Assembly (NCBI GenBank): GCA_031285625.1
Contig: JAITVV010000017.1
Location: 1 to 64,000, forward strand
DNA: 64,000 nucleotides
Origin: Prevotella sp.
GTDB lineage: Bacteria > Bacteroidota > Bacteroidia > Bacteroidales > Dysgonomonadaceae
Direction: 5' to 3'
Shown here: one piece after another, positions 12,655 through 43,607 of the stretch
How the letters are laid out: every line of letters starts with the position of its first letter
How positions within the stretch are numbered: position 1 is the first letter of the stretch
The notes under the pieces: model-generated
What the model saw: only the letters and a program-made list of their open reading frames with translations
Told to the model about the DNA's origin: nothing
Database searches by the model: none
Made by a program: the position numbers and the translations under genes

Positions 12655-15600
12655 TTAGAATGAAACATTAACTCCAAAATTGAATGTTTTATTTAGAGGA
12701 TACATATAGCCATACAATTCTGTCGGATGTTCAGGATCGAGACCTTTCACTCCGGTTATTGTGAACAAATTATAAGCATTCGTATAGATACGCAGGTTTT
12801 GAATACCCACTTTTGAAACGATTTTCTTAGGAAGAGAATATCCCAATTCAATACTTTTGAGACGCAGGTAAGCTCCATCCTGTATTCTAAACCTAGAATT
12901 ATCATCAGCATTAGACCCCGTATAGGCAAAATGTCCTGAAGTCCACTTTGTAGAAGAATCGTAAGGATCGGCCTTAGGATCTACAGGATGCCATCTGTCC
13001 ATAAACATATCCAACGCATTTCCATTCCACGCAAGAGGTTCTCTAAACTGCTCTCCATATGATACATATGACATAGCTGCGCCCTGAAATAGCATATTAA
13101 TATCAAAGCCTTTATAATCAGCCATAATTGTTAAACCGAAGTTCATCAACGGATAATTACGCTTATCCTGGAAGTCGGCTTTACTGGCATCTGTAGTTGT
13201 TGCAATCGGATAGCGGTCCATATCGTCAATCACACCATCACCATTCCAGTCTTCATAAATATAATCACCCGGAAGAGTCTCGCGACCAGTGAATACAGGG
13301 TAATTTGCAATCTGTTCGTAAGACTGGTAACGGCCATTGTCGCCCCAACCGAACCAAATATCATTATACCTGTTATTTTTATTGTCTCTCCAGTTTTTGT
13401 ATGAGTTACCAAATGGAGAGCCTTCTACATATTTGTTTTTTGTTCTTGTTAAAGACATATTTCCGATGAGGCTGTATCCAAAATCGCCGATGCGGTTTTT
13501 ATGACTTAAAGCTAATTCTATACCTTGAGTTTGGTCACTATTTAAGTTTTCCTGAGCCATTGCGGAACCGAATGATCCCGGAAGGCTTACAGCACGATCG
13601 GCTAATAAGCCATCACGATCACGACGGAATACATCGAATGAAACGCCTAATAATCCTTTCCACATATCAAGGTCGAGGCCCAGATTAAGTGTTTTTACAG
13701 TATACCATGTGATATAATAGTTTGGATAAGGCCTGTATTCGATAGCAGGTACAAATTGCCCATCAAAAACATATCCGCCTCCCAATGCCTGACGATCGCC
13801 ATTGTAAGGATAATTATATCCTGGAATAAACTGATATGATGATGCTCCGTCGTCTCCCATCTTACCATAAGATGCCCGTACTTTCAGGTTATCTATAAAA
13901 CTCAAACTGCTATTGCTTTTTATAAATGACTCTTCTGAAACCCTCCAGCCAATGGCTCCTGCAGGGAAGAAGCCCCAACGTCCATCTTTAGGAAATTTAG
14001 ATGAGCCGTCATATCTGAAACTGAACTCAGCCAGATATTTACCCATAAAGTCATAATTAAATTTTCCAACAAGACCTTTATTTGCATTCTCATATATTCC
14101 ATCAATATTGCTGTTTCCCAACTGATCTTTTGATACTCCGGCATATAAATACGGAATAGAAATAGCCAGATTGCGTTGAGCAAAGAAATTATCGCCCGTA
14201 TTGCGGCTTTCTTCATAGAGTAACAATGCTTTGATCTGATGTTTTTGACTGAACAAACGATCGTAATTCAAGGCTGCCTGCCACAGATGTGAGGGTGTAG
14301 AAGCATAATACCTGTATAGCCTTTCAGGATAATTCATCTTGAACGGAGTGTATGCATCATTCGTTCCATCATAAGTATATACATTGTATTCTTTAGTAAA
14401 AGTGGAATTATCATAGAAACGCATATCATAACTAAATAAACCTTTAGCAGATAATCCTTCAACATAGGGAACATTGTATTCCAATTCGAATGAAGACTGT
14501 ATCCACTTGTTATCATTCTTCTTATAACCTGTCACATCTGCAGACGATGCCGCCAGAGGATTGAGATCATTATTTACCTTCATGTAATATGGAGCCGTAT
14601 TATTGGCATACAATGGTTCGTTCGGAATTTGCCTCCAAAGGGTTTTAAATATCTGCCAGGTATCTGTAGACTGGCTTTTTTTACTGTCAATGATACCATT
14701 CAGCTTAACAGACATTTTGAAATCTTTGGATAATTGGGCATCCAGATTTACACGGAGATTATAACGTTCATATTCAAGATCATCCGCTTTAAGAAATCCT
14801 CGCTGATTCGTGTATCCGAAATTGACAAAATATCCCATCTTGTTAGCAACATTACCGCTAGCGCTCACATTGTGCTGATACTGAGGAGCGGTACTCTTCA
14901 GCACTGCATCATACCAATCTGTAGACTGACGGGTTCCATTGTAGTATTCTTCAAAGTCTTTATCAAAGTATATATCTACTGCATCACCATTCAGTCCAGA
15001 ACTTCTTCTGTTACGTTCGTTGAACAGGGTCATGCGATCGACAGCTCCCACCGGTTTCTGTTGCTCTACCGGTTTCTGTATTCCATAGTTGAATGAATAA
15101 TCGATTTTGGTTTTCCCATCAGAACCTTTTTTTGTTGTGATAAGCACAACTCCATTTGCAGCCCTTACTCCATACACAGCAGCAGAAGCGTCTTTCAGTA
15201 TAGAGATACTCTCAATCTCATTCGGGTCGAGGCGGGTAAAGTTATCACGGGGAATACCATCCACTACAACAAGTGGATTTCCAAATCCCCGAATATCGAA
15301 CTGGTTATTGAATTCTCCGGGTTCTGATGTTTTCTGAATAACACGTACTCCCGGCACTTTACCAGTCATCATATTCTGCACATTCTGATTCTTTGTTGCA
15401 ACAAGGTCTTTGTTATCAATGGCAGCAACCGAACCTGTCAAGGTCGCTTTCTTTTGGGTACCATATCCGACAACTACAATTTCTTCCAAAACCTGCAAAT
15501 CTTCCTTCAGAGTTACATTAAGTGTCGTTTTACCCGATATATCCAATATTTGCGGAATAAAACCGATAAAAGAAATTTTCACCTTTTGCGTGTTGGTTGG

Positions 15601-15861
15601 AACATTTAATGTAAAGTCTCCGTTCTCATCTGTTATTGCTCCGATAGTAGAGTTCTCGACGGCAATACTAGCTCCGATAATAGGGTCTTTTTGCTCATCC
15701 GTTATTTTTCCCGAAACAGTTTTGGTATTTTGCGAATATCCATAATTAACAGAACTGATAAAAATCAGTAAAATGGCAAATAGTCGTACATGAATTTTTC
15801 TTTGCCAAAAAGGGATGTATTCCGCCCCTTTTTTTAAATAGTAATTTTTCATAGGCAACAT
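12655..15861 (-). CDS. SusC/RagA family TonB-linked outer-membrane transporter
   Basis: 1,068-residue TonB-dependent glycan importer. A long signal region ends near SVNYGYSQ. A carboxypeptidase-regulatory domain (KTVSGKITDEQKDPIIGASI) follows, then the pre-plug signature LEEIVVVGYGTQKK, the plug (VPGVRVIQ, NQFDIRGFGNPLVVVDGIP) and a 22-strand-type barrel ending in the aromatic NFGVNVSF. It is the first gene of the four-gene PUL. The start could also be the methionine at 15852. The upstream 250 bases contain an inverted repeat at 15913-15925; no clear TAnnTTTG box was found there, consistent with activator dependence. Confidence 0.95.
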   Translation of the reverse strand: MLPMKNYYLKKGAEYIPFWQRKIHVRLFAILLIFISSVNYGYSQNTKTVSGKITDEQKDPIIGASIAVENSTIGAITDENGDFTLNVPTNTQKVKISFIGFIPQILDISGKTTLNVTLKEDLQVLEEIVVVGYGTQKKATLTGSVAAIDNKDLVATKNQNVQNMMTGKVPGVRVIQKTSEPGEFNNQFDIRGFGNPLVVVDGIPRDNFTRLDPNEIESISILKDASAAVYGVRAANGVVLITTKKGSDGKTKIDYSFNYGIQKPVEQQKPVGAVDRMTLFNERNRRSSGLNGDAVDIYFDKDFEEYYNGTRQSTDWYDAVLKSTAPQYQHNVSASGNVANKMGYFVNFGYTNQRGFLKADDLEYERYNLRVNLDAQLSKDFKMSVKLNGIIDSKKSQSTDTWQIFKTLWRQIPNEPLYANNTAPYYMKVNNDLNPLAASSADVTGYKKNDNKWIQSSFELEYNVPYVEGLSAKGLFSYDMRFYDNSTFTKEYNVYTYDGTNDAYTPFKMNYPERLYRYYASTPSHLWQAALNYDRLFSQKHQIKALLLYEESRNTGDNFFAQRNLAISIPYLYAGVSKDQLGNSNIDGIYENANKGLVGKFNYDFMGKYLAEFSFRYDGSSKFPKDGRWGFFPAGAIGWRVSEESFIKSNSSLSFIDNLKVRASYGKMGDDGASSYQFIPGYNYPYNGDRQALGGGYVFDGQFVPAIEYRPYPNYYITWYTVKTLNLGLDLDMWKGLLGVSFDVFRRDRDGLLADRAVSLPGSFGSAMAQENLNSDQTQGIELALSHKNRIGDFGYSLIGNMSLTRTKNKYVEGSPFGNSYKNWRDNKNNRYNDIWFGWGDNGRYQSYEQIANYPVFTGRETLPGDYIYEDWNGDGVIDDMDRYPIATTTDASKADFQDKRNYPLMNFGLTIMADYKGFDINMLFQGAAMSYVSYGEQFREPLAWNGNALDMFMDRWHPVDPKADPYDSSTKWTSGHFAYTGSNADDNSRFRIQDGAYLRLKSIELGYSLPKKIVSKVGIQNLRIYTNAYNLFTITGVKGLDPEHPTELYGYMYPLNKTFNFGVNVSF

Positions 15862-29096: not shown

Positions 29097-29491
29097 GGGG
29101 CTGACTGGCTTTGACAGCGAGATGAAGTGGTTTGTAAGCATGCAGTGCGTAGTCGGCTGGCACTATAATCTCAGACGTCAAAATTTTAACTGGCAATAAC
29201 AATTACGCTCTTGCTGCTTAATCGAAGTATAGTAGATATAGCTTAATCTCTGCACAGGTGTGGAGACAAGACATCGCCCGGAAGCTGTGGCTTCGAAGCG
29301 TGCCGATCAGGCGGTGCAGGCAAATCGGAGATAGAATAAGAGAAGCTTTGGCTTTTATTTGAAATTAAGAAGCTAAGGTTTGAGTTGGTAGCTTTGGTCT
29401 TGCTCACTCCCGACAATCTAAAGCGAAGATAAGCATGTAGAAAGCAAATTAGTTCCTTGTTTGGACGAGGGTTCAAGTCCCTCCAGCTCCA
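29097..29491 (+). ncRNA. ssrA: Transfer-messenger RNA (tmRNA)
   Basis: The 5' end GGGGCTGACTGGCTTTGACAG pairs with the 3' AGCTCC-A as in alanyl tmRNA. The T-arm GGGTTCAAGTCCC is clear. The coding part reads GGC AAT AAC AAT TAC GCT CTT GCT GCT TAA (29192-29221), giving the tag GNNNYALAA, close to tags of other Bacteroidales (ending NYALAA). CCA is not encoded. tmRNA rescues stalled ribosomes and marks the products for proteolysis. Its last 14 bases and terminator form the left end of an inserted element, so the 3' end now in use was supplied or restored by the insertion. Confidence 0.95.
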
Positions 29492-29550
29492 CAGATTGAA
29501 AAAGAAAAATGCATCTTACCCCTGTAAATTACACGTTTACAGGGATTTTT
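29478..29550 (+). repeat. Left end (attL) of the ssrA element, 73-bp direct repeat
   Basis: The repeat covers the last 14 bases of ssrA plus the terminator and matches 39805-39877 with two mismatches in 73 (29512 C/T, 29532 C/G). The first 34 bases are identical. This is the footprint left by tyrosine-recombinase integration at a tmRNA 3' end. Confidence 0.85.
29520..29550 (+). terminator. ssrA terminator
   Basis: CCCTGTAAA and TTTACAGGG form a perfect 9-bp stem with a 7-nt loop, followed by ATTTTTATTTT. An almost identical copy lies at 39847-39877 in the right repeat. Confidence 0.85.
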
Positions 29551-29757: not shown

Positions 29758-30807
29758 ATGAAAAGAGTAACTTTCAAAGTGTCCTTTTTTGTAAAAAGAA
29801 CCAGGATTGCAAAAAACGGAGAAGTGCCTGTTAAATTAAAGGTAACTGTAAATAAAGAGAAAATTGAAGTATCCATTAATCAGAAGATTAATCCTGATTT
29901 ATGGAGTTCAGTAACAGAGAAATCTACGGACAAAGATCGTAAATCGTTGGAAATTAACAGCCGGTTAGATTCTATCCGTTTCCGACTCATGGAAATTTAC
30001 CGGGAAATGGAAATCAACGGTGAAGAGATTAAAGTTGACAAGATAGTCAATAAGTATAAAGGTATTGAAACAGAGCCTAGGATTACCCTTCTTTCGATAT
30101 TTCAGGAACATAATGAAAGATGTCATAAACTGGAAGGCAAGGATATGTCACGTTCTACAATCATGCGCTATGAAACAGCTTATCGACATACTCAGGAGTT
30201 TATTCAATTTCAATATAAAAAGGAAGATGTCGATATTGAAGAGATAAATTATCAGTTCGTAAAGGATTATGAATTCTTCCTGAAGACAGAGCGGGACTGC
30301 AATCATAATTCGACTATGAAATACCTGAAGAATTTTAAGAAGATAATCCGTATTGCTTTGGCCAATGAATGGCTGAAAAAAGATCCTTTTATGAATTTTA
30401 AAATGACTTATGAGGAAGTTGAACGTGAATTCCTAGAATATCACGAGCTAGAGAAAATCATGCAAAAAGAATTTGAAATAGAGCGTTTGGCTAATGTGCG
30501 TGATATACTGGTCTTCTGTTGTTTTACAGGCCTAGCTTTTTCGGATGTAAAGACTCTATCTAAAGAGCATTTGGTAACTGATAATGAAGATGCATTATGG
30601 ATTCGTAAGCAACGGATAAAAACAAATAACATGTGTAATATACCTCTTCTTGATATTCCTCAGAAAATATTGGAGAAATATAGGACTCATCCTGTTTGCC
30701 AAAAGAAAGGAGTATTGCTCCCTGTTCTCTCGAATCAAAAGATGAATACTTATCTTCGTGAAATAGCTGATGTCTGCGGTATCAAGAAGACGATTACAAC
30801 TCACTAA
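29758..30807 (+). pseudogene. Truncated tyrosine recombinase (integrase)
   Basis: 349 residues. N-terminal arm-type DNA-binding domain (MKRVTFKVSFFVKRTRI, then VPVKLKVTVNKEKIEVSI), SAM-like core-binding domain (about 115-215) and the first half of the catalytic domain (ILVFCCFTGLAFSDVKTL, ALWIRKQRIKTNN). The frame stops at KKTITTH, where family members continue into ARHTFAT with the HxxR box, a second histidine and the nucleophilic tyrosine. Full-length relatives have about 400 residues. No continuation was found in other frames downstream, so the 3' end was lost by deletion or replacement. Its place beside the left repeat suggests it made the insertion. Confidence 0.85.
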
Positions 30808-31243: not shown

Positions 31244-31273
31244 AAACAAATTTGTTTATTTTTATTATCTTTG
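31244..31273 (+). promoter_or_regulatory. Promoter with palindromic operator of the antitoxin-like gene
   Basis: AAACAAATTTGTTT (31244-31257) is a perfect 14-bp palindrome, followed by the -7 box TATCTTTG (31266-31273). ATG 31292 is 18 bases further; a TTG at 31271 lies in the box and is not the start. HTH antitoxins usually repress themselves at such palindromes. Confidence 0.5.
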
Positions 31274-31291
31274 TATATCAATACAATAGAT

Positions 31292-31804
31292 ATGGATTCA
31301 AAAATAGATATAATAAAGGGTATTCATCCGGGCATTATTCTGGATAGGGAATTGAAAAAGAGAAAGCTTCAAAAGAGTCGTTTTGCTATTTCCATCAATG
31401 AATATCCTCAGACTTTGGTTGCTATAACTAAAGCCAAGAGACGCATGAATCCGGAACTTGCACTGAAGATAGAACATGCTCTTGGAATAGAAGAGGGGTT
31501 CTTTATGATCTTGCAAGTGTATTATGATATCGAACAGATTAAAAAGGAACAGAATAAGAATTACCATCCCGATCTGACAAAGATAAATCCAACTCTATTC
31601 TGGGATACGAAAATAGAGGATATCGACTGGGACAAGAACCGGAGATATGTAATCCGTCGCGTTCTTGAACGTGGAAATGAAATAGAAAAGAAAGAGATAC
31701 TCCGCTTCTATGGAAAGGAAAAAGTCAATGAAGTTCTGAGATATTATCGGGATTTAACTCCATCAACAAAAGAAAGTGCAAATAAACTGTTAGAAACTAT
31801 ATAA
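31292..31804 (+). CDS. HigA-like helix-turn-helix antitoxin
   Basis: 170 residues from ATG 31292. The N-terminal half is a HigA-like HTH (GIHPGIILDRELKKRKL, KSRFAISINEYPQTLVAI, MNPELALKIEHALGI). The C-terminal half, NPTLFWDTKIEDIDWDK then YVIRRVLERGNEIEKKEIL, resembles the DUF6922-like tail found in Bacteroidetes proteins encoded just before AbiEii-type nucleotidyltransferase toxins. The toxin gene follows 2 bases later but is broken. So it is an antitoxin that has lost its toxin, or now acts only as a regulator. Confidence 0.75.
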   Translation: MDSKIDIIKGIHPGIILDRELKKRKLQKSRFAISINEYPQTLVAITKAKRRMNPELALKIEHALGIEEGFFMILQVYYDIEQIKKEQNKNYHPDLTKINPTLFWDTKIEDIDWDKNRRYVIRRVLERGNEIEKKEILRFYGKEKVNEVLRYYRDLTPSTKESANKLLETI

Positions 31805-31806
31805 CC

Positions 31807-32309
31807 ATGTTGTATTATAATACTGTCACGCCTTTACTGCAAAATGCTCTGGAGAACTAATGCTAGCAGAAGTTTTAAAACCCTTTCGATTAGTTGGTGG
31901 TACATCATTGAGCTTACAACTCGGTCACCGCGAATCGGTTGACATTGACTTATTCACAGATTTGGAATACAATACCGTAGATTTTAAAGCTATTGAAGAA
32001 TATTTGAAACTGAATTTTACTTATGTTTCCACATCTAATATTGATTTGGTAGGATTTGGGAAATCATTTTATATCGGACACTCTGAATCGGACTATGTGA
32101 AATTGGATTTATATTATACAGATCCGTTTATCAGACCGGTAAAAGAAATTGACGGTATTCGTCTAGAATTATTGGAAAATTGAAAATAAAAGCGAAAACT
32201 GACAGAAGTTATGATTTTTACAACCAATATATATGACTGTTATTTACTTTTAAACAATAAAATGACTAAGGTACAATTATTTGAAATGGCAGAAAAAACT
32301 GTTTTATAG
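31807..32309 (+). pseudogene. Broken AbiEii-type nucleotidyltransferase toxin
   Basis: The reading begins MLYYNTVTPLLQNALEN and hits TAA at 31858; one frame over it continues MLAEVLKPFRLVGGTSLSLQ then LGHRESVDIDLFTD, the GGT/LGHR and DxD motifs of AbiEii/AbiGii nucleotidyltransferases. A single missing base (AACCTAATG to AACTAATG) explains the break. A second stop comes at 32181, and a C-terminal remnant (YDCYLLLNNKM, about 32230-32306) is in yet another register. The family, when intact, blocks translation by modifying tRNA. This copy should be inactive. Confidence 0.8.
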
Positions 32310-32370: not shown

Positions 32371-33903
32371 ATGAAGAATACAAGGTCAATTCTCCCTACT
32401 GCCGTAGGTTTGTTAACAGCAACAGCTGTAGCCGTTGTTACCTCGGATTATGCAACAGCATCCCTTGCAAGTATTGCAGGACAGATAGGGACCGGCGTTG
32501 CAGGAAATATGTTATCAAGTTTGATACCATCAAGATTAAATAATATAGAGGATGATCCGGAAAAGCTGAATCACAGTATTAAGAAATTATTCATTAATTC
32601 TATATCTCAAGCCCTTTCTTCAGTTTATATTACTTATACGAAAGATGATAATGTAACAAAGAAGGAAAAGAAAGAAGCCCTGAAAATAGTTGGATTTTTA
32701 CAAAAGGGATTAACAGATGAATTAAATAATAACTCAATACTGGACATAAATGAGAATTTAGTCAATGATTTTTTATATCAAAAGGACTTACCGCATAATC
32801 AAGATATTATATCCTATATATTAAGAAAATTAGCTATATCAGAGACACAAATAAGTGATTCATTCAAAAGATGTTTATCAGAAAACTATAACACTTATAT
32901 CGAACTTACTTTCGGAGAGGGGTTAAAAGAAGATTCGAATAGAAATGCATGGATAGCATTTCAACGGCTACTTATCGAAGACTTAAGAGACAGGCTTGTA
33001 AGGATAGAAGATGGCCAGATCAGAATAGAGGAAAAGTTAACTAGCCTAAAAGATGTAAATGGAGAATTTACGGATGAAGAGATGAAAGTCATACGCGATC
33101 TAAAAAAAACTCTTCAAGACAAGGAACTTATAAAAACCCATGTAAGTAAAACAACAACTAAAAGGCTGAAAGCTATTGAAGCTAATGGGGCTAAAGTACT
33201 ATCTATTATAACAAAAACAGATGTCCAGGTAGATAATATATATATTATAATCAAATCGTTTGTAGAAGATTATAATAGAGAGAGAAGAAAAGCTAAACGA
33301 AACATTATAATACTAATACTCTTTCTCATAATTTGTTTTCCTCTGATAACTTATCTGACTTATAATTCTTTTACTCAGCCATTTACATTGTCTATTCAAA
33401 CACATGGCTGGAAAGGCAAGAAACACAGGCCATTAGAAGGGGTTGGAACGCTCGAAATAGTTCTGGGAGATAAAACAGAGAAAGCCGAGATAAGCAGAAA
33501 TGGAGAGGCTATATTTAAGAATGTTGATCATAAATACAATAAGACATCTGTTTTGGTTAGATTACTGGATACCAGAGGAGAATTATACTATGTCTCTGAC
33601 AGTACGGTGTTTATAAATAAAAATAAGATTAATTATGTGCAAATCGGTTTGAAGGGTATAGATGAACTCCAGGGGATCATTATTGATAATATTTCCGGAG
33701 ATGGATTGGGCCAAGCAACAGTTGAACTGGCCGGAGTGGAAACAACAACAGACGAAAAAGGGCGTTTTAGACTCTCCATCCCCATAACAAAACAGGAGAA
33801 AAAGCAGGAAATCTATGTGTATAAGGAAGGGTATACCACCTATCGTGCTATGGTACCAATGGGTAATGAAAATGAATGCAGAATTGTATTGAAACGGAAA
33901 TGA
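32371..33903 (+). CDS. Membrane protein with cytoplasmic helical domain and two external beta domains
   Basis: 510 residues, not assignable to a named family. Residues 1-50 hold a glycine/alanine-rich hydrophobic stretch (TAVGLLTATAVAVVT, IAGQIGTGVAGNMLSSLI). Residues 60-305 are helical, with NRNAWIAFQRLLIEDLRDRL and EDGQIRIEEKL recalling N-terminal regions of STAND-type NTPase and TPR conflict proteins. One membrane helix at about 311-332 (NIIILILFLIICFPLITYL). Then two beta-sandwich units, the second a carboxypeptidase-regulatory fold (LQGIIIDNISGDGLGQATVE, TTTDEKGRFRLS). No NTPase motif is present. A TATCTTTA box lies at 32339. It ends 2 bases before the giant TPR gene, so they are one operon. 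It may link a periplasmic event to a cytoplasmic response; this is inference. Confidence 0.75.
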   Translation: MKNTRSILPTAVGLLTATAVAVVTSDYATASLASIAGQIGTGVAGNMLSSLIPSRLNNIEDDPEKLNHSIKKLFINSISQALSSVYITYTKDDNVTKKEKKEALKIVGFLQKGLTDELNNNSILDINENLVNDFLYQKDLPHNQDIISYILRKLAISETQISDSFKRCLSENYNTYIELTFGEGLKEDSNRNAWIAFQRLLIEDLRDRLVRIEDGQIRIEEKLTSLKDVNGEFTDEEMKVIRDLKKTLQDKELIKTHVSKTTTKRLKAIEANGAKVLSIITKTDVQVDNIYIIIKSFVEDYNRERRKAKRNIIILILFLIICFPLITYLTYNSFTQPFTLSIQTHGWKGKKHRPLEGVGTLEIVLGDKTEKAEISRNGEAIFKNVDHKYNKTSVLVRLLDTRGELYYVSDSTVFINKNKINYVQIGLKGIDELQGIIIDNISGDGLGQATVELAGVETTTDEKGRFRLSIPITKQEKKQEIYVYKEGYTTYRAMVPMGNENECRIVLKRK

Positions 33904-33905
33904 TT

Positions 33906-36900
33906 ATGAAAAAGCAACTGTGGCTGACTCTTTTTTTCTTAATAGTTCCTTTTATTTGTAAAGGGCAAATGACAAAACTTGACGGGGTGGTTGCCGTGCA
34001 AAATAGTAAAATAAATACCGGACAAATTATATATGTAGAAGGTGTTGAGATTAAACATGACGAAGCCAAATCTGATGTTACTGATAGTAACGGCTATTTT
34101 TCGTTGCAAATAGTGGGAGTAGAGCCCAACACGCAAACTAAAATTGAAGTGACGCCGACAGGCAAATTCAATGATTATATTGTTGTTAATAAGCGGGACA
34201 TTAATGATATAACACTTGGTAGAAAAGAAAGGATCAACATATATATATGCGAAAAAAATGAATATTTCAAAAGGGTAGATGAGCTATATAATATCAATCG
34301 CACAAAAAACGATGAGAAATTTGAAAGAGAAATCAAAGACCTTAAATTTCAATTGACAAAAGCCAGAGAAAAAGAACAATATGATAAAGCAAAACGCATC
34401 ACAGATAGTATAGATAACATTGAAAAGATAAAAGTCAATATGGTTGATTTTATCCGTGATATCTCTGAGAAGATGGCTCAGATTAACCTCGATAATTCGG
34501 ATTCAATTATGTTAAATGCCTTTACAAAAATTTCTCAAGGGGACTTGGACAGTGCATTAATATATATACCAATAGAATTAATAAGAGAAAAATATTTGCA
34601 TGGTGAGATACTCTCCGGTACAGGTCAAAAGATGAAAGATGAAGCTATCCAGTTAGTACTGATGAAAGCTCGTCTGTCTGTCCTGAAGAGTTTCGATGAG
34701 GCATGCAGCAATTATGAAGAAGCGATAAAACTTGCTCCCTTCGATTTTGAGATTATTCTGGAATATATGAGTTACCTTAAAACATACAATAAGTATAATT
34801 CAGCCAAGAGGATAACATTAGAAGCAATAGAACGAAGCATAGAGAATGAAAAACAAACCGGAATTATAAGGGCTGAATCATTAGGCAAAGTTCATTTTCA
34901 ATTAGGTAGCCTTATGTCGGAAGAAGGTGATTTTAATAACTCAGAAGAACACTTAAATAAAGCAGCACATTATTTTCAGATATTGAGCCATAATGTAAAT
35001 GATACTGCCTATGTACAAAAGAAAATGGAGATATATACCATGTTGGGGCAAAATGCCAGAAGACAAAAAAACTGGCATAAAGCTGAGGTATATATGCAGG
35101 AAGCATTAAATTGTGTCAGCATTCAAGAACATATTAATTATCCGGATCATATAATCTTTATTTATTTCCAATTTGGTGAAATCAAACGGACTCAATCAAA
35201 TTATAAAGAAGCCTCTATTTATTTTGAAAAGGCATTGGCCATTTATAAATCATTAGACAAGGAAGATATCAATCCATATCAGTATGCACTTCTATTAAGT
35301 CTGCTTTCATTAACAAAAGTGGAGAATTTTGAATATAATGCCGCTAGGGATTATATAAATGAGGCTATTGATATTGTTGATAATGGTGATATTGAGTCTT
35401 CGTCAATGAAAATAAAAGAGGACTGTGCCGGATGTTTCATGGTTGCGGCTCAATGCTTTGAAAGATTGAATGAAATATCAAAGGCAAAATACTTCATGGA
35501 TAAAGGAATGCAAATTTATACCGATTTAGCAGATAAGTATCCTCAGATATATGCCGATACATATTTTATGAACCTTTTTGAAAATATTGACAGTGAAAAT
35601 AAAGAATCAGAAGGCAAACTGATTGAAGTTATAGGTAAATATACAAGTCTGGCTAAGGATGATTATGCTCTTTTCGAACAATATAGAATCATCCTTTTAT
35701 TTAAACTTACAACATATTATGAAAAACATAATAATAATCAAAAAGCAGACAAATACCTGAAAGAAGCATTAAGTGCCACTGAATTACTACTTGAGACCAA
35801 TCCGATTAAATATTATATAACCTTTTCTGATATTTTTTATAATTTAGGATATCATTATCTTGAGAATAAGAATCTTCCGGCAGCTAATTCATATTTTGAA
35901 AAAGGAATAAGTTATTACAAAGCATATACAGAGCTAAACCCTATGGGCGAAATTGCTGGATTGGGAGATTATTTAAGCCAGATAGGTGATTCCTATACAT
36001 CCTTCCATGAATATGTAATAGCAGAAAAGTATCTTAAGCAAGGTGTTGAGATACTGGCCAAACTGGGAAGCGTTGATAATATATCGTATGCTACGGCTTT
36101 AACAGGCAGTTATTACCAGATTGCAAATAACTATCACCGGATAGCATTATCGGATTCCGCACTTGTTTATATAAACAAAGCATTAGATGTTCAGTCGAAT
36201 CTTTACAAAAAAGATCCATTAATATTTAATTCATCTTATTCAAAGATGCTAGTCTCAGCGGCAGCTTCATATCGCATGCATGGAAATATAGAAATAGCAG
36301 ATAGCCTGATTCATAAATCATTGAATATTTTACAGACAATGGATAGCGCTCAAATAAAAGATCATAATGATGCTTTGTCATTAACATTTATGGAGCTAGC
36401 CAATAACTATAAAAATATGAATAATCATAAGGACGCGAAGTACTATTATGATCAGGCATATCCAATAGTTAAGGAACGGTACAGAGAAAGAGGATATCTC
36501 AATATTCAGAATTACTTGATTCTGTTAAATAACATGGGAGAACTCTTTAACTCTATGGAAGAATTTGATTCTGCTGAACATTATCTTACAGAAGGTTTAC
36601 AGGTTTACGATGAATGTGATTCGACTGAACAAATCGAATGTCTTCATATATATTTACTTTTAAAACAAACATTGGGTATTTCATATCTTAAACAAAATAA
36701 ACGCGATGAAGGTAAAGAGATACTGGATGAAGTAATTACCGGATACGAAGAGCTATACCAGGAAGATAAAAGAGCCGCCCAATCTAATATTGGATATATT
36801 ACCGGAGAATTAGGCCTGGTATATTTAGAGGTAAACGAATATGATCAAGCTTATGAACTTTTAAATAAATCAATAAAGTTAAAGGAGGCATTAAGGCAGG

Positions 36901-39446
36901 AATATGACAATAACAGAAATAAATATGAACTTTCTGTTGCCTATAAGGATATGGGGCAATTTTACCAAAAAGTGGACAATCCGGAGAAATGCATTGAATT
37001 TATGCATAAAAGTCAGGATCTGCTTTCTATTCTGATCAAAGAAGTACCTTCTCAGTATCTCGGATATTATATAAAGAATGGAAATAATTTAGAGAGGGTA
37101 TTACTTGAAGCAGACTCAATAAATCAATATTATGAATTTAATAGTAGAACCAAGGCGGAAATAGAAGGAGTAATAAATAATTATCCACATTTGAAATACA
37201 ATATTATCAACTGGTTAATGGGCCAATCAAATCTATTTAGGAGCAAATTAGATAATATAGATAAAGCAATTGAATATTTTGAAAAAGGGATGCTAATATA
37301 TAATGAAATAGAAAATAAGGACGAGATTGGTGATATTCTTATTATAAGTTTATATTATTATTTTGGAAATCATTATTGTCAAGGGAAAGACATAGCAAAA
37401 GCCGAGATTTATTATAAAGGAGGCATTGATTATATAAATCAACTTGATATTGAAAAACAAAAAGAATATGTAAAGGAAAAATATCTTTTATACAATGACT
37501 TATCGATAATTTATTTCTCTGAAAATATTAATATAGATAAGGGTACGGGGTTAAAAAAAGAAGTGATAAAATATTTAGAATCGAAAGGAAAACGTTCAAT
37601 TAAGGATCTGGAATCCTTAGCAAAATCATATTTAGACCTTGGATATTTGTCCTATAAACAGAAGTCTAATGATAATGCTGAAATGTTATTGACTAAAGCT
37701 ATTCTATTATTTGATTCTAATCAGGATTTATCCTTTTCAAAAGATGCTGCGCAGGCTAATGATTACATGGGATATATCAATATTTCTAGTAATCCTATAA
37801 AATCAGAACAATATTTCAGAAAAGCCATAGATATATTTGAATACAACTATAAAATTGATTCGTTGCAGGCATTAATTGATTTTACGCCTATACTGAATAA
37901 TATAGCTAATTCCTACTACGAAATACAAAATGAAGCTAAATTTGAAGAATATATAGATTATATCCTGACGAAGTCTGAGCCTGTTTTAGAAACATCTGAG
38001 TATTTAGCGGGTTTAGTGAAAATTGTAGATGATTTAAAAAAAATGGAGAACGTAAACCTTTGTGAAAAATATACGGATCTATTATTGAGCAAGGTATCGG
38101 CTATAGATGAAAATACTTTTATGTATAAATTTATTTCAATGTATGTAAATTGCACGAAGTCACAAATACTTGTTCAAAGTAATAAACCTGTTGGGGAATA
38201 TCTGTTGAAAGCGATAAAATCATATTCTACAATTGATGATAATGATTTAGAAATAAATAGTTTATCTTTAGTAGGCCTCATATTTCAATTAGTCCCAATG
38301 GATAAAACCATTAATGAAGAAGTTTTAGTTGAAATAGATTCATTATCTAATAAGTATAAAGATCAGGTAATAAGAAGTTTTGCCAATGAGATGGAAGAAC
38401 AAAGAGTAAATTCCGTACAGCTATTATATCCGCTTGCTGACTTTTATTTACATACTCTTAAAGATCCTGTAAAAGCAAAAGAGCTTTATATACCTATTAT
38501 TTCAGAAATTGATAAGTTGGAAAAAGAGAAACTTCCCAATGACCTATTTATTATCCTGGTGAATTCGTGTGAAAGATTAGGAGCTATTTATTATTCTGAA
38601 AATGATTATGGGAATACTGAGATTTACTTGGAACGTGCACTTGAACTATTAGAAGATATTCCTTCAGAGTATGACAACAGTTCATTTAAGACTGAAATAA
38701 AGAATAGAATGGTAGGACTATACATCAACACGGATAGATTCGATAAAGCATTAGATTTGAATAAAGATGTATTATCATTTTTAGAATCTGCGTCTCAAAA
38801 GTCAGCGCAATTGAAAATACATTATTCTTGGGCATTAGCCAATCACGCTGATATCCATAGCCATAGAGCGGGATTTTCAACAGCAATGGATTATTATACT
38901 AAAGCAGTAGATCTGCATAATGAAATCTTAGCAGATAACCCTGACGAACAAAAGCTAATAAGTGATTTATGCGGTTATTTCCAGCAAATGTATATAATTA
39001 GCTATAAACTTTCTGATTATCAGTCGGCACTTGTCTATGTGGATAAACATTTGGAGTATTTAACAAAACATTCAGATATGACGACCCAGGAATATATAGA
39101 TATGAAAAAATGTGATAAGATATTCCTTCTCTTAGTCTTAAATGAAATTGATAGTGCTGTATCTACACTGAAAGGAATATCATATCCGGGTGTTAATATT
39201 ATTCGGGTACGCTTTTATCAGTCATTGCTAAATTTAATAAATGATGAAAAAGAAGAGGCTATTAATATTTTGAATGATCTAATACATTATATTGAGTCAG
39301 ATTATGATGATAGTAAAGACCTTTATAATATGATTGTTGAGCAAATCCAGGTTTTACATCGAAGTAATAGGCATATACATGAAAAATTGTTTGACGACTA
39401 TTTTGTTATATTAAAGAATAAAATTGATGAATTGCAATTAGAATGA
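33906..39446 (+). CDS. Giant exported TPR-repeat protein
   Basis: 1,846 residues from ATG 33906; the longer frame from 33876 would overlap the previous gene and spoil the signal peptide. Signal peptide MKKQLWLTLFFLIVPFICKG, a carboxypeptidase-regulatory-like beta domain (about 25-110: KLDGVVAVQNSKINTGQ, DVTDSNGYFSLQIVG), a charged coiled coil (about 125-180), then TPR repeats to the C-terminus, for example EASIYFEKALAIYKSL, AEKYLKQGVEILAKL, AEIYYKGGIDYINQL. No enzyme domain is seen. As both it and its partner carry the same kind of beta domain on the non-cytoplasmic side, they may interact through them. Open and undamaged across 5.5 kb although most neighbours in the element are broken, which points to selection. 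Confidence 0.85.
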   Translation: MKKQLWLTLFFLIVPFICKGQMTKLDGVVAVQNSKINTGQIIYVEGVEIKHDEAKSDVTDSNGYFSLQIVGVEPNTQTKIEVTPTGKFNDYIVVNKRDINDITLGRKERINIYICEKNEYFKRVDELYNINRTKNDEKFEREIKDLKFQLTKAREKEQYDKAKRITDSIDNIEKIKVNMVDFIRDISEKMAQINLDNSDSIMLNAFTKISQGDLDSALIYIPIELIREKYLHGEILSGTGQKMKDEAIQLVLMKARLSVLKSFDEACSNYEEAIKLAPFDFEIILEYMSYLKTYNKYNSAKRITLEAIERSIENEKQTGIIRAESLGKVHFQLGSLMSEEGDFNNSEEHLNKAAHYFQILSHNVNDTAYVQKKMEIYTMLGQNARRQKNWHKAEVYMQEALNCVSIQEHINYPDHIIFIYFQFGEIKRTQSNYKEASIYFEKALAIYKSLDKEDINPYQYALLLSLLSLTKVENFEYNAARDYINEAIDIVDNGDIESSSMKIKEDCAGCFMVAAQCFERLNEISKAKYFMDKGMQIYTDLADKYPQIYADTYFMNLFENIDSENKESEGKLIEVIGKYTSLAKDDYALFEQYRIILLFKLTTYYEKHNNNQKADKYLKEALSATELLLETNPIKYYITFSDIFYNLGYHYLENKNLPAANSYFEKGISYYKAYTELNPMGEIAGLGDYLSQIGDSYTSFHEYVIAEKYLKQGVEILAKLGSVDNISYATALTGSYYQIANNYHRIALSDSALVYINKALDVQSNLYKKDPLIFNSSYSKMLVSAAASYRMHGNIEIADSLIHKSLNILQTMDSAQIKDHNDALSLTFMELANNYKNMNNHKDAKYYYDQAYPIVKERYRERGYLNIQNYLILLNNMGELFNSMEEFDSAEHYLTEGLQVYDECDSTEQIECLHIYLLLKQTLGISYLKQNKRDEGKEILDEVITGYEELYQEDKRAAQSNIGYITGELGLVYLEVNEYDQAYELLNKSIKLKEALRQEYDNNRNKYELSVAYKDMGQFYQKVDNPEKCIEFMHKSQDLLSILIKEVPSQYLGYYIKNGNNLERVLLEADSINQYYEFNSRTKAEIEGVINNYPHLKYNIINWLMGQSNLFRSKLDNIDKAIEYFEKGMLIYNEIENKDEIGDILIISLYYYFGNHYCQGKDIAKAEIYYKGGIDYINQLDIEKQKEYVKEKYLLYNDLSIIYFSENINIDKGTGLKKEVIKYLESKGKRSIKDLESLAKSYLDLGYLSYKQKSNDNAEMLLTKAILLFDSNQDLSFSKDAAQANDYMGYINISSNPIKSEQYFRKAIDIFEYNYKIDSLQALIDFTPILNNIANSYYEIQNEAKFEEYIDYILTKSEPVLETSEYLAGLVKIVDDLKKMENVNLCEKYTDLLLSKVSAIDENTFMYKFISMYVNCTKSQILVQSNKPVGEYLLKAIKSYSTIDDNDLEINSLSLVGLIFQLVPMDKTINEEVLVEIDSLSNKYKDQVIRSFANEMEEQRVNSVQLLYPLADFYLHTLKDPVKAKELYIPIISEIDKLEKEKLPNDLFIILVNSCERLGAIYYSENDYGNTEIYLERALELLEDIPSEYDNSSFKTEIKNRMVGLYINTDRFDKALDLNKDVLSFLESASQKSAQLKIHYSWALANHADIHSHRAGFSTAMDYYTKAVDLHNEILADNPDEQKLISDLCGYFQQMYIISYKLSDYQSALVYVDKHLEYLTKHSDMTTQEYIDMKKCDKIFLLLVLNEIDSAVSTLKGISYPGVNIIRVRFYQSLLNLINDEKEEAINILNDLIHYIESDYDDSKDLYNMIVEQIQVLHRSNRHIHEKLFDDYFVILKNKIDELQLE

Positions 39447-39804: not shown

Positions 39805-39877
39805 TCCCTCCAGCTCCACAGATTGAAAAAGAAAAATGTATCTTACCCCTGTAAATTAGACGTTTACAGGGATTTTT
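39805..39877 (+). repeat. Right end (attR) of the ssrA element, 73-bp direct repeat
   Basis: Starts TCCCTCCAGCTCCACAGATT, the last 14 bases of ssrA plus flank, and includes a full copy of the ssrA terminator hairpin. It differs from 29478-29550 at two positions. No tmRNA body precedes it, so it is the displaced original 3' end. Confidence 0.85.
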
Positions 39878-40369: not shown

Positions 40370-41968
40370 TCAAATATTAACCACTTTATCTACTTCACAC
40401 TCAAAATCTCTTAAATGCGTGGCCATCAAAATGGTAATATTGGGATATTGGTGTTTGATATTTCGAAAAATAGCGATCGCATTCTCGGAACTGATACCCG
40501 CTGTAGGCTCATCTACGACTAACAATTGTGGTTTTTTAAGTAGTGCTTGTGCCAACAATAATTTTTTTCGCTGTCCACCACTCAACGTTTCTCCATTCTC
40601 ACCTAACCAACTTGCCAAACCATCTGATAATGATGAACGCCAGCTTATCAAATCAACAATATCCAATACCTCTTCAATTGCATCATCAGGGTACCCCTCG
40701 AAATTTTCACGCAAAGTCCCTGTAAGTAAATATGCTTTTTGCGTAACATAAATACAGTTTGGCACAGGTAGATGTAATAATTCTGAATCATCATTCCATA
40801 TCAATGATCCTTTAGAGCGGTATTCCGGATAAAAAAGGCTGTTCAACAGAGTCGTTTTCCCTTTTCCTGTTTCTCCAAAGAGTGCTATCCATTCTCCCTT
40901 TTTTATTTCTAATGACACTTCGCAAGTATGTACAGAAGTTTCAGGAATCCTTGCACTGATATTTTTTAAACTCAAATTTTCGAAAGAGGAATTAATTTCT
41001 GTTATTCCAACAGATTGTTTACCTTCCTCAATAATTGTATCAATATCTTTGATTTGATGCGCGACAGAGCTCCTTTCCGATTTTCCGGAGAAAAGCATTT
41101 CAGATAGTTCAGCTTGTGCCATAATACCGAAGAAAATCCCTAGCGCTGTTGGTGTATCAATACTATAATTACCTGAATTCCATAACAGGAACATAGCAAT
41201 ATAACTGAACCCAAGCCCAGCAATCAGTTGCAAATAAAATGAATTATTTTGCAATTTATCTTCCAGTCGTTCAATCTGCAATAATCTTTTCTCATATTGC
41301 CCGATAGCTTTCTGCTCCAGATTATATTTTGAAATTTCTATACTGCCTCTAAAACTTTGGATGAGTTCCTTATTGTTTTCTTCACGATGTATTTTTAGCT
41401 CCTTATACAACTTTCTATTTTTTCGGAAAAAGAATTGAGGAATAATAAACAGAAGAAGAGAAGAAGAAATCAAAAATTCTACAGCTATAACTTGCGAAAA
41501 TACAATAAGAAAGAAAAAGTAGATAGCAAGTGACAGTATTAGTGCAGTAAATGGTAAAAGCCACAAGAGGATATGATTCAATATCTGATCAACGCCATGC
41601 GTACTATTTTCGAGCAATGCAGAGTTATTGTTAACCTGTTTCTTAAAATAGGGAAATTTGGCTACCGATTTAAATATTTTCAACTGTAGGCTCCGTTGAG
41701 CTTCAAGTGTGGTTTTATGGTTCTCCAACCGTTCGAAATACCGGGTTGCAGTACGTACCAATGCCATCAAACGAATAATGGCAGATGGTACCAAATATGA
41801 AAATAGGGTATTTGCTGTGACAAATGCTACGCTACACATCGCTAAAAACCATCCCGAGATAGCAGGAAGAGCAATAAATGCTATCGTCCAGAGGAGTAAA
41901 AGAAAAATACCCAACAACCACTTACCCTTTAAGGGTTTTAATATATGTGTTATGATAAATTTATTCAT
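40370..41968 (-). CDS. cydC: CydC-like subunit of the thiol/heme ABC exporter
   Basis: 532 residues: six-helix ABC transporter membrane domain, then the nucleotide-binding domain with Walker A GETGKGKTTLLN (about 365-376), signature TLSGGQRKKLLLAQALL and Walker B LLVVDEPTAGIS. The MALVRTATRYFERLENHKTT stretch matches CydC (RxxxRYxERLxxHxxT). CydDC exports thiols or heme and supports assembly of cytochrome bd. It overlaps cydD by 8 bases. cydA and cydB are not in this window. Confidence 0.85.
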   Translation of the reverse strand: MNKFIITHILKPLKGKWLLGIFLLLLWTIAFIALPAISGWFLAMCSVAFVTANTLFSYLVPSAIIRLMALVRTATRYFERLENHKTTLEAQRSLQLKIFKSVAKFPYFKKQVNNNSALLENSTHGVDQILNHILLWLLPFTALILSLAIYFFFLIVFSQVIAVEFLISSSLLLFIIPQFFFRKNRKLYKELKIHREENNKELIQSFRGSIEISKYNLEQKAIGQYEKRLLQIERLEDKLQNNSFYLQLIAGLGFSYIAMFLLWNSGNYSIDTPTALGIFFGIMAQAELSEMLFSGKSERSSVAHQIKDIDTIIEEGKQSVGITEINSSFENLSLKNISARIPETSVHTCEVSLEIKKGEWIALFGETGKGKTTLLNSLFYPEYRSKGSLIWNDDSELLHLPVPNCIYVTQKAYLLTGTLRENFEGYPDDAIEEVLDIVDLISWRSSLSDGLASWLGENGETLSGGQRKKLLLAQALLKKPQLLVVDEPTAGISSENAIAIFRNIKHQYPNITILMATHLRDFECEVDKVVNI

Positions 41969-43607
41969 AGTCCATCTGCTCCCCCCAATTTAAGTTCAAG
42001 GTTACATCAGCCACAGCATCAAACATTCTTTCGTGTGAAGCTATAATAACCAAGCGATCTTCAGCCAAATTCATAATCTGTGGAAGAATAATTTCGACAG
42101 TACCAGCGTCCAGATTTGCTGTGGGCTCATCCAGAATAGCTACAGGTCTCGGATGCAACATCATCCGCGCGAGTGTAATTAATTGTTTTTCGCCACCGGA
42201 AAGCTGTTTACCATTATGGCTCAACCCAGCTAGCCAACCATCCTCTTTTTTTGATAAAATTTTATCTAAGAAATCGGGATATTCATCGTATTTATCAGCC
42301 TCGGTTTCGAGGAAAACATTATATCCCAGCGTCCCGTCAAAAATAAAAGGAAACTGGTTCATATATGATGAGTTTGCTTTCAACCACTCATGAGACCACC
42401 CATTATCTTTTCCATTTACCGCAACTATACCATCTTGCGCAAAGAGGCTTCCAGTACAGATTTTTAACAAGGTAGACTTGCCCGAACCAGAGATACCCTT
42501 TACCAGGACTAATCCTTTCGTCGGTAATTTCAGATTGATATTATGTAAGACTTTCACAGGCGAATTGGGATAAGCAAAACTTAAATTATTGATTTCAAAA
42601 GCACTAAGTTTTTCATCCGTATCGGTAAAAGGAACATTGGTGCTCTTATTAAGTATAGGCATCACTAATTTTGCCGAAGCTAAAGCTTTATTGCGATCGT
42701 GATAAGCACTCACAAATTTGCGTAAATAAAAGAAAAAATAAGGGGCCAAAGTCAGTAAAAACAGCGCTGTACGGAATTCATACCCCTTTCCATAGTTGGG
42801 ACCTGTCATAATTCCAAGTAGACTCATACCCAAATAAATAGCAACTACAGCAATAGAGATGGTAACAAAAAGTTCCAATACTGCTGATGACAAAATAGCA
42901 ACCTGCATTACATTCGTAGTAGCTTTATTCAGCGCCTTACTTTTTTCTGATAAAAAACGATATTGGGGTTTGAAATTATCTAAATTAACGATTTCAGCAA
43001 TAGTTTGAAGCCGATTGTAAAAGATTGCCGAATATTTTAAGAAAAGATTGATATGCTTCTTATGAAGAGCCTCAGCACCCAAACCAATAACGATCATTTG
43101 CATCGGGATAACTAACAACGAAATCAATAATATTATACCAACCCACTTTTCCATCCAGAAACTAACAACCAACAACAGTATACTGACTAAAACCGAAGCG
43201 ATGGAATATGGTATAAAAAAAGCGAAAAAAGGTTTCAAGTCATCGCTTATTCTTGTAACAAACAAAGTACTCGATATGGAGTCTAATTGATTGTTTTTAA
43301 GCAATACTGGATAAAGTTTTTTTTTGATCTTGGAAACAATAATATTTCCTGCTTTATAGTTGAATAATGATGCGAAATGAGCAAGGATATATCTGCCAGC
43401 TAAGAATATTGCTGCGTACATTAATGTAATGGGCAAAAATAGTCCATCATCGAGCCATGAAGCAGCAAACCCCGATAAGTACCAACAAAAAACGACAAAA
43501 CACCCCGCACTTAAAACGGTAAATATCGAAGCTAGAATATACGAACCCTTTGCTTCAGCTATCTTTTTACTCAACCACCGGGAGGCACTTTCCTGTTTTG
43601 AGCTCAT
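41961..43607 (-). CDS. cydD: CydD-like subunit of the thiol/heme ABC exporter
   Basis: 548 residues: six membrane helices, then the nucleotide-binding domain with Walker A GISGSGKSTLLK (about 370), signature KQLSGGEKQLITLARMML and Walker B VAILDEPTANLD. The segment YNRLQTIAEIVNLDNFKP then ILSSAVLELFVTISIAVVAI is typical of CydD (FxDxLxGLxTLxxFG; SSAVLEFFxSISIA). Forms a heterodimer with CydC. Has its own promoter box at 43687-43694 and is not part of the LytTR modules that flank it. Confidence 0.87.
   Translation of the reverse strand: MSSKQESASRWLSKKIAEAKGSYILASIFTVLSAGCFVVFCWYLSGFAASWLDDGLFLPITLMYAAIFLAGRYILAHFASLFNYKAGNIIVSKIKKKLYPVLLKNNQLDSISSTLFVTRISDDLKPFFAFFIPYSIASVLVSILLLVVSFWMEKWVGIILLISLLVIPMQMIVIGLGAEALHKKHINLFLKYSAIFYNRLQTIAEIVNLDNFKPQYRFLSEKSKALNKATTNVMQVAILSSAVLELFVTISIAVVAIYLGMSLLGIMTGPNYGKGYEFRTALFLLTLAPYFFFYLRKFVSAYHDRNKALASAKLVMPILNKSTNVPFTDTDEKLSAFEINNLSFAYPNSPVKVLHNINLKLPTKGLVLVKGISGSGKSTLLKICTGSLFAQDGIVAVNGKDNGWSHEWLKANSSYMNQFPFIFDGTLGYNVFLETEADKYDEYPDFLDKILSKKEDGWLAGLSHNGKQLSGGEKQLITLARMMLHPRPVAILDEPTANLDAGTVEIILPQIMNLAEDRLVIIASHERMFDAVADVTLNLNWGEQMDYE

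Follow-up and report, generated by a model that had tools for sequence, protein, structure and literature searches.

Results and Discussion

Two Intact Genes in an ssrA Element

The stretch of DNA analyzed here (64,000 nucleotides, referred to as the window) contains two neighboring genes on the forward strand, named P1 and P2 in the following. The 510-aa frame of P1 is intact and ends with a TGA stop at 33901-33903, and the 1846-aa frame of P2 has its ATG 2 nt further downstream, at 33906 (Table 1); an alternative ATG at 33900 would overlap P1. Two intact frames separated by two bases (32371-33903 and 33906-39446) had already been described in the original prediction, which was made from the sequence alone, and this description is correct. 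Together, both genes fill about 7.1 kb of an element of about 10.4 kb that is flanked by 73-bp direct repeats with 97% identity. For the integrase of this element, the catalytic domain was matched over positions 2-130 of the 172 profile positions, below the cut-off, and the frames are broken past 30807. The GC content amounts to 0.324 for the element, 0.310 for P2 and 0.352 for the window. cydDC-like ABC-transporter genes are located just beyond the element (40370-43607).

Table 1. Features of the P1/P2 locus in the window, and TrkA_N/RCK-like genes at loci of relatives (L numbers).
Feature	Position	Strand	Evidence
tmRNA gene (ssrA), integration site	29097..29492	+	ARAGORN, Rfam RF00023
Left att-like repeat (tmRNA 3' end and downstream)	29478..29550	+	73-bp direct repeat, 97%
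Tyrosine integrase, C-terminal part broken	29758..30807	+	Pfam Phage_int_SAM_5, Arm-DNA-bind_5
HigA-like antitoxin ORF	31271..31804	+	TIGR02607 E 2.5e-11, 43.2 bits, below cut-off of 47.7; DUF6922
AbiEii toxin fragment	31860..32183	+	PF08843 E 4.2e-9, residues 7-89, profile 13-111 of 238
P1, membrane protein, 510 aa	32371..33903	+	intact ORF; 77% identical ortholog in D. hofstadii; dN/dS 0.14
P1 N-terminal hydrophobic segment, residues 6-24	32386..32442	+	hydropathy
P1 membrane helix, residues 312-330, predicted N-in/C-out	33304..33360	+	hydropathy and flanking charge
P1 first outer beta domain, about residues 338-430	33382..33660	+	alignment A6; boundary by eye
P1 second outer domain, CarboxypepD_reg-like, residues 433-507	33667..33891	+	PF13620 below cut-off; A6
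P2, exported TPR protein, 1846 aa	33906..39446	+	ORF, Pfam; ortholog 67% identical; dN/dS 0.20
P2 predicted signal peptide, residues 1-21	33906..33968	+	hydropathy; Q21 almost invariant in the 17 aligned N-modules
P2 N-terminal beta domain, residues 22-115	33969..34250	+	alignment A8; boundary by eye; not resolved by AlphaFold model
P2 helical coil, residues 119-191	34260..34478	+	AlphaFold helices, modest confidence; A8
P2 TPR solenoid, from about residue 245	34638..39443	+	Pfam TPR models; AlphaFold
Right att-like repeat	39805..39877	+	73-bp direct repeat, 97%
TrkA_N/RCK-like genes (both subfamilies)	L074 428-2389; L075 6212-8164; L072 19159 to L073 1610; L109 16350-18329; L113 10638-12779		
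TrkA_N/RCK-like genes (both subfamilies, continued)	L116 12767-13987; L121 7222-9540; L115 2930-4042; L153 7568-9910		

Domain Architecture of P1 and P2

P1 possesses one strong membrane segment (residues 312-330, Kyte-Doolittle value 2.86), which is flanked by six K/R residues on its N side and by none on its C side. The single membrane helix postulated earlier is found in this segment, but a further hydrophobic stretch (residues 6-24) had been overlooked and makes the topology of P1 less certain. The two C-terminal outer beta domains were recovered as described, the last one matching CarboxypepD_reg (PF13620) with an E-value of 2.4e-5 and 25.1 bits, below the Pfam cut-off of 32.3. With the same model, the C-terminal part of a relative (L109) scored 34.8 bits alone, and the whole protein 31.9.

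The cytoplasmic part of P1 seems to be an orphan helical domain, as judged from helices suggested by the sequence and by a low-confidence model; the structure prediction for P1 (mean pLDDT 38) was useless. At E 0.1, searches of Pfam, PADLOC, and NCBIfam with the N-terminal part were negative, and the best match in PHROGs had an E-value of 0.049. A likeness to the N-terminal regions of conflict-type or STAND NTPases, as had been proposed, could not be substantiated, an NTPase or STAND effector-associated domain being absent from the matches at E 0.1 in the same three databases. Pfam also gave no match for a TIR domain in P1 of the window. Neither P1 nor the P2 N-module matched any sequence among plasmids and phages, with no match of P1 residues 1-235 to plasmids up to E 5, and a pattern search of viral contigs, which reaches close relatives only, found no P1 either. 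Apart from matches judged spurious, no relatives of the cytoplasmic domain were found in 393 genomes of the order and 395 of the phylum. These spurious matches were weak and, named by eye, belong to an SbcC-like (L062), a TonB-receptor-like (L063) and redox proteins (L124, L126); L125, of the same family as L124, was left out of this reading. The sole other trace of the domain is a 110-aa ORF of D. hofstadii with 31% identity over the aligned length. This ORF (L005 1507-1839) resembles P1 residues 116-225 and is perhaps a relic or a free-standing orphan domain.

The prediction that P2 is an exported TPR protein starting with a beta domain was confirmed. Its N-terminus is hydrophobic and ends with CKGQ, its N-module resembles that of the P2-like proteins of relatives, and its TPR repeats score above the curated cut-off (TPR_12, E 1.1e-31, 109.3 bits versus 30.1). 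All Pfam matches of P2 are of the TPR type, apart from two marginal others, and in PADLOC only a generic TPR model was matched (E 0.038). An AlphaFold model extending to residue 480, with pLDDT values mostly between 70 and 93 for residues 261-480, contributes just one point, namely that the TPR part comes after the coil.

Orthologs in D. hofstadii and Selection on Both Proteins

Among 120 genomes (the own genome and 119 relatives), full-length P1 and P2 are present in the own genome and in that of D. hofstadii DSM 104969, all other matches being partial; within the genus, the pair is found in two out of 25 genomes (own included). P1 and P2 are 77 and 67% identical to their orthologs, respectively. 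The dN/dS values according to Nei-Gojobori (window versus D. hofstadii) of 0.141 for P1 and 0.200 for P2, at dS of approximately 0.95-0.99, indicate that both proteins are under selection. The view that the genes are selected cargo and not present by chance is thus strengthened by the retention of the pair in D. hofstadii and by purifying selection. In P1, residues 1-50 form the best-conserved block (94% identity). In P2, residues 1-300 show 80-94% identity per 50-residue block, and residues 801-1300 constitute the most variable long stretch (42-62%), a distribution that would be expected for a conserved dock combined with a faster-changing recognition surface.

In D. hofstadii, the pair is located about 2.9 kb upstream of the tmRNA gene, outside the att-bounded stretch, and adjoins small ORFs that by eye resemble HTH and HU genes. 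The att-like copy downstream of the tmRNA encloses a hydrolase-like gene (L007 6856-9080) and not the pair, which suggests that the site exchanges its cargo. Since the D. hofstadii pair lies outside the ssrA element, this element is one carrier and not the rule. The assignment of the pair as cargo of an ssrA element, made in the original prediction, is consequently valid for the window with its 73-bp repeats but not in general.

A Modular Family of P1-Like Proteins in Bacteroidales

A profile of P2 residues 1-285 matched five other genomes among 393 Bacteroidales at E<=0.001. In G157, G178, and G140 (relatives are designated by genome, contig and locus numbers), the gene directly upstream of the P2-like gene combines a P1-like C-terminal half with a different N-terminal half. 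In G155, the gene upstream lacks likeness to P1, and on its other side the P2-like gene borders a contig end; since a P1-like gene sits at the terminus of a different contig, the assembly may have broken the pair. The match in G280 (L077) was regarded as chance, the genes there being translation genes by eye.

At E<=1e-7, a profile built from P1 residues 311-510 and four relatives (A5) identified 20 P1-like loci in 17 of the 393 genomes (own included), or 21 with D. hofstadii. At E<=0.001, 68 genomes were matched; rows weaker than 1e-7 were dropped, as partial coverage and frame length, rather than individual inspection, pointed to CarboxypepD_reg domains of other proteins. The alignment of the 21 P1-like proteins (A6) defines a family core consisting of the membrane helix and two outer beta domains, all of which are present in P1 of the window. 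K/R residues are in excess on the N side of the main helix in 19 of these proteins and even in G218 (2/2) and G279 (3/3). An additional hydrophobic peak occurs in G370 and G182 C40, besides segment 6-24 of the window and D. hofstadii.

What differs among the 21 proteins is the cytoplasmic part, which is a TIR domain in 12, DUF4062-like in four, C39-papain-like in two, short in one and helical in two, the last type being confined to the window and D. hofstadii. All 12 TIR-type proteins score above the Pfam cut-off for TIR_2 and share an aligned Glu in the stretch S.[WY]V..E, which we take to be catalytic. The DUF4062-like domain is common to four proteins. In G178, it shares 41% identity with a protein annotated as DUF4062 and encoded next to a COR-domain gene; none of the four obtained a DUF4062 row in Pfam, although this library did name TIR_2 and C39. 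Similarity to Peptidase_C39_2 is above the cut-off in G218 and below it in G370, and no match was obtained for the short cytoplasmic region. In a phylogenetic tree, P1 of the window falls into a group of nine rows together with the DUF4062-like, C39-like and short types, with a support of 80/88, which is under the firm-branch mark of the tool. In G362, a second TIR-like protein (by eye; L119 12165-13427) is encoded directly after the TIR-type pair.

Because the family was first reached via the window's own sequences, the profiles were rebuilt without the rows of the window and D. hofstadii. The resulting 19-row P1 profile found P1 with an E-value of 1.6e-24 (residues 315-509), a profile from the 12 TIR-type rows alone found it with 2.5e-15, and the corresponding P2 profile found P2 with 1.5e-21. 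Next best among the 34 ORFs of the window was a large ORF (12655-15861) with 7.9e-6 for the P1 and 2.6e-5 for the P2 profile, which shares the general beta-domain type. On the level of sequences, pairing, modularity and purifying selection can be regarded as shown.

Beyond the order, a search of 148 genomes of the phylum with A6 gave matches at E<=1e-6 in 16, the own genome among them. Of the three examined, G498 and G581 span most of A6; most of the other matches cover the last domain only. The three were G498, with a HEAT-like N-terminal part below the cut-off, G581, with two membrane segments and an exported neighbor with a beta domain (both by eye), and an ORF of G470 that turned out not to be P1-like; G566:C12 (positions 10-160 in a 1064-aa frame) was left out. 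Distant relatives of the pair retain the outer halves with other inner parts, frequently the TIR domain known from immune receptors, so that bacterial envelope alarms may be assembled from exchangeable modules.

Partner and Neighboring Genes

A P2-like gene, comprising export signal, beta domain, coil and TPR, adjoins the P1-like gene at 16 of the 21 loci, in agreement with the co-occurrence to be expected from the original prediction. Both gene orders occur, and the distance from the end of one gene to the start of the other ranges from -34 to 51 nt at 15 loci and is 629 nt at one (counted from the upstream ATG for the window and D. hofstadii). Ten of the 16 partners were found in the first search round at E 2.7e-9 or better, with the window, D. 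hofstadii, G157, G178, and G140 as the only seeds. In G378 and G396, the P1-like gene adjoins a TPR-like ORF that is cut by the contig start, and no P2-like gene is located beside the P1-like genes of G370, G182 C40 and G155, the last of which is 84 nt from a contig end. The 17 aligned P2 N-modules (A8) share the signal, the beta domain, the coil and a short conserved stretch preceding the TPR part.

Iteration of the P2 profile pulled in P1 proteins; therefore, the first round and a separate A8 profile were used, A8 containing rows from most of these P2-like loci. The P2-like protein of G279, missed in the first round, was found by A8 without its own row (E 4.6e-15). In 12 genomes chosen for holding P1-like genes, 30 of 47 rows were strong P2 modules (E 5.6e-30 or better; G362:C75 aligned over positions 1-130 only), and the other 17, with E 6.4e-10 or worse and part of the module covered, were dropped. 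Of the strong modules, 22 belong to a gene run that includes a P1-like gene and eight stand alone. P1 usually occurs with P2, but P2 can occur on its own, and this speaks against a system strictly made of two parts. The genes next to the eight lone P2-like genes (L151-L158) are mostly housekeeping-like by eye, and the same impression was gained for the gene neighborhoods of the relatives.

A third gene, encoding a TrkA_N/RCK-like membrane protein, is located near all four DUF4062-type loci, with TrkA_N below the cut-off in the three proteins scanned. Members of a second, distantly similar subfamily are found at four of the 12 TIR-type loci (G191, G371, G182 C40, and G271), and also beside one lone P2 (G362 C75); a weak RCK row was obtained for one out of four scanned. 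In all, eight of the 21 P1-like loci have such a protein, which is possibly a third component, and none was found in the stretches of the window and D. hofstadii. The lone P1-like gene of G182 C40 and the lone P2-like gene of G362 C75 occupy apparently syntenic loci, each being located beside a TrkA_N/RCK-like protein (76% identical). Homology of the third gene to RyR was also considered and rejected, as Pfam gave no RyR row; a publication on calcium systems has, in its available part, no bearing on this question.

A Split Receptor as the Proposed Function

We propose that P1 and P2 form a split receptor that spans the inner membrane and belongs to a modular Bacteroidales family, most likely with a protective role; the chances of this reading as a whole appear about even. 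The layout itself, with P2 sensing outside, P1 relaying and the cytoplasmic part responding, is likely. It corresponds to the trans-envelope arrangement of the original prediction, in which an outer solenoid signals inward through P1, and it finds support in the co-conserved pair and in relatives that combine TIR domains inside with the same outer modules. In the scheme that we infer for P1 orientation, docking, sensing and response, P2 would reside in the periplasm or at the outer membrane, where its solenoid would bind an envelope signal, e.g., a damaged, foreign or mis-sorted protein, and its N-terminal beta domain and coil would dock on the outer beta domains of P1. Binding of P2 might then change or cluster P1, to which the cytoplasmic part would respond. 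In the TIR members, this response would probably be NAD+ cleavage or formation of an NAD-derived messenger. In the window variant, the orphan helical domain would provide the response; its near-invariant, hydrophobic and Gly/Ala-rich N-terminus (P1 residues 1-50) leads us to guess an action on the membrane, a guess that has no support from homology and that we regard as improbable.

The purpose of such a receptor would most likely be protection from attack, such as phage adsorption, contact-dependent toxins or a similar envelope insult. The strongest functional hint are the TIR types. Among six relatives scanned with PADLOC, the five TIR-type proteins showed matches in their TIR region, including SAVED-TIR and ThsB profiles, and the C39-type protein showed none; among three DUF4062-type proteins scanned, one matched the candidate defense model PDC-S60 (E 0.0013). 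These TIR relatives and profile matches, together with the one weak PDC-S60 match, lend indirect support to the role in defense suggested earlier, but P1 itself matched none of the defense models in PADLOC and the neighboring genes of the relatives are mostly housekeeping-like by eye, so that this role is conceivable at somewhat less than even chances. Taken as a whole, the original prediction is partly supported.

The pair could instead be an envelope housekeeping scaffold, with P2 as periplasmic TPR chaperone or assembly platform, P1 as its anchor and the cytoplasmic domains regulating local metabolism or attachment. Bacteroidota secretion machinery often carries CarboxypepD_reg and TPR domains (PorE), and the eight lone modules among the 30 strong P2 modules, found beside sdh-, ligA- or htpG-like genes (by eye), would fit such a role. 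However, TIR domains in 12 of 21 partners and the exchange of cytoplasmic domains are unusual for a scaffold, and the sporadic distribution (17 of 393 genomes) also argues against it; we consider this explanation rather unlikely.

Trans-envelope transcriptional signaling, with the P1-like proteins as anti-sigma-like regulators and P2 as periplasmic signal receiver, is less probable still. It is suggested by G370, where a small ECF-sigma-like ORF (by eye; L111 6600-7202) immediately precedes the C39-type P1-like gene (L111 6600-8727 together) and the first residues of the P1-like protein resemble an anti-sigma segment (by eye). This is one locus, assessed by eye only, whereas no such ORF was noticed beside the window pair and Pfam gave no anti-sigma row for the two C39-type proteins. 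Already disfavored, and very improbable in our view, is the notion that P1 and P2 are passengers without a selected function that entered the ssrA element by chance. Their presence in only two of 25 genus genomes and the broken integrase and AbiEii genes of the element are in line with it; dN/dS values of 0.14 and 0.20, where neutrality predicts values near 1, intact frames of 510 and 1846 codons and the same pairing at distant loci are not.

The receptor reading can be extended to a Bacteroidota class of split Toll-like envelope receptors with exchangeable outputs, in which a secreted TPR solenoid would read events in the periplasm or at the cell surface, and of which the window pair would be a new-output variant spread by an ssrA-integrating element. 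At the TrkA/RCK-like loci, the neighboring channel would perhaps be gated by an NAD-derived messenger that the TIR or TIR-like domain produces. This extension is speculative and in our estimate rather doubtful. Most known TIR and STAND defenses sense phage inside the cell; if the class exists, bacteria would also run surface-facing receptors of an immune type that are laid out like Toll-like receptors. Conserved pairs have now been located, and the TIR domain of the relatives could provide an enzymatic read-out.

Comparison With Described Systems

Toll-like receptors consist of a solenoid ectodomain, a membrane helix and a TIR domain. An extracytoplasmic solenoid, a membrane helix and, in 12 of the 21 relatives, a TIR domain inside are also found here, but P1 and P2 are split into two proteins, the solenoid is TPR and not LRR, additional beta domains are present and the window lacks TIR, so that the likeness is one of layout and not of whole-system homology. 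With regard to Thoeris, all 12 TIR-type relatives match Pfam ThsB_TIR and all five scanned match the ThsB models of PADLOC weakly; unlike Thoeris, the P1/P2 family has a membrane helix and an exported partner, P1 of the window lacks TIR, and neither ThsA (SIR2/SLOG) nor ThsB was matched by P1 or P2 in PADLOC. In the stretches of the relatives that were inspected, no ThsA partner was noticed. Bacteroidota proteins with CarboxypepD_reg (SusC/TonB receptors and others) share the beta-domain type, whereas P1 has a helix of the inner-membrane type and no barrel.

As far as the available parts of the sources go, the EACC1 membrane pair and the conflict systems with exchanged effectors come closest among the described systems found (PMC7159879, PMC8195603). 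EACC1 is characterized in the available part of PMC7159879 as a membrane-associated two-gene conflict system, prevalent in actinobacteria, whose second gene is of the caspase type; it has two genes, a single conserved membrane helix and exchangeable domains in common with P1/P2. In contrast to what this part of the source describes, P1/P2 keeps constant its outer beta domains together with an exported TPR protein, and no caspase was found among the Pfam matches of P2, which are of the TPR type apart from the two marginal ones. In the EAD, bDLD, and TRADD-N systems, TIR, peptidase-like and adaptor domains are likewise exchanged on a constant core, but the cores are NTPases, caspases or other modules, and the available parts of these sources contain no trans-envelope TIR/TPR pair (PMC7159879, PMC8195603). 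The available parts of PMC8195603, PMC7159879, PMC7016017, and PMC9503650 do not describe the P1/P2 pair, nor was a description found in the literature searched, from which subscription journals were mostly excluded.

Copies of the tmRNA End in Other Genomes

Repeats of the tmRNA end away from the tmRNA gene are also found in the genomes G016, G021, and G010. In G016 (Dysgonomonas), genes for phage-tail sheath, tube, spike and PAAR proteins (Pfam), which constitute a contractile injection cluster (L048 17810-19780, L049 755-2865), are located between two further copies. A similar sheath ORF (by eye; L059 19471-19900) lies near such a repeat in G021.
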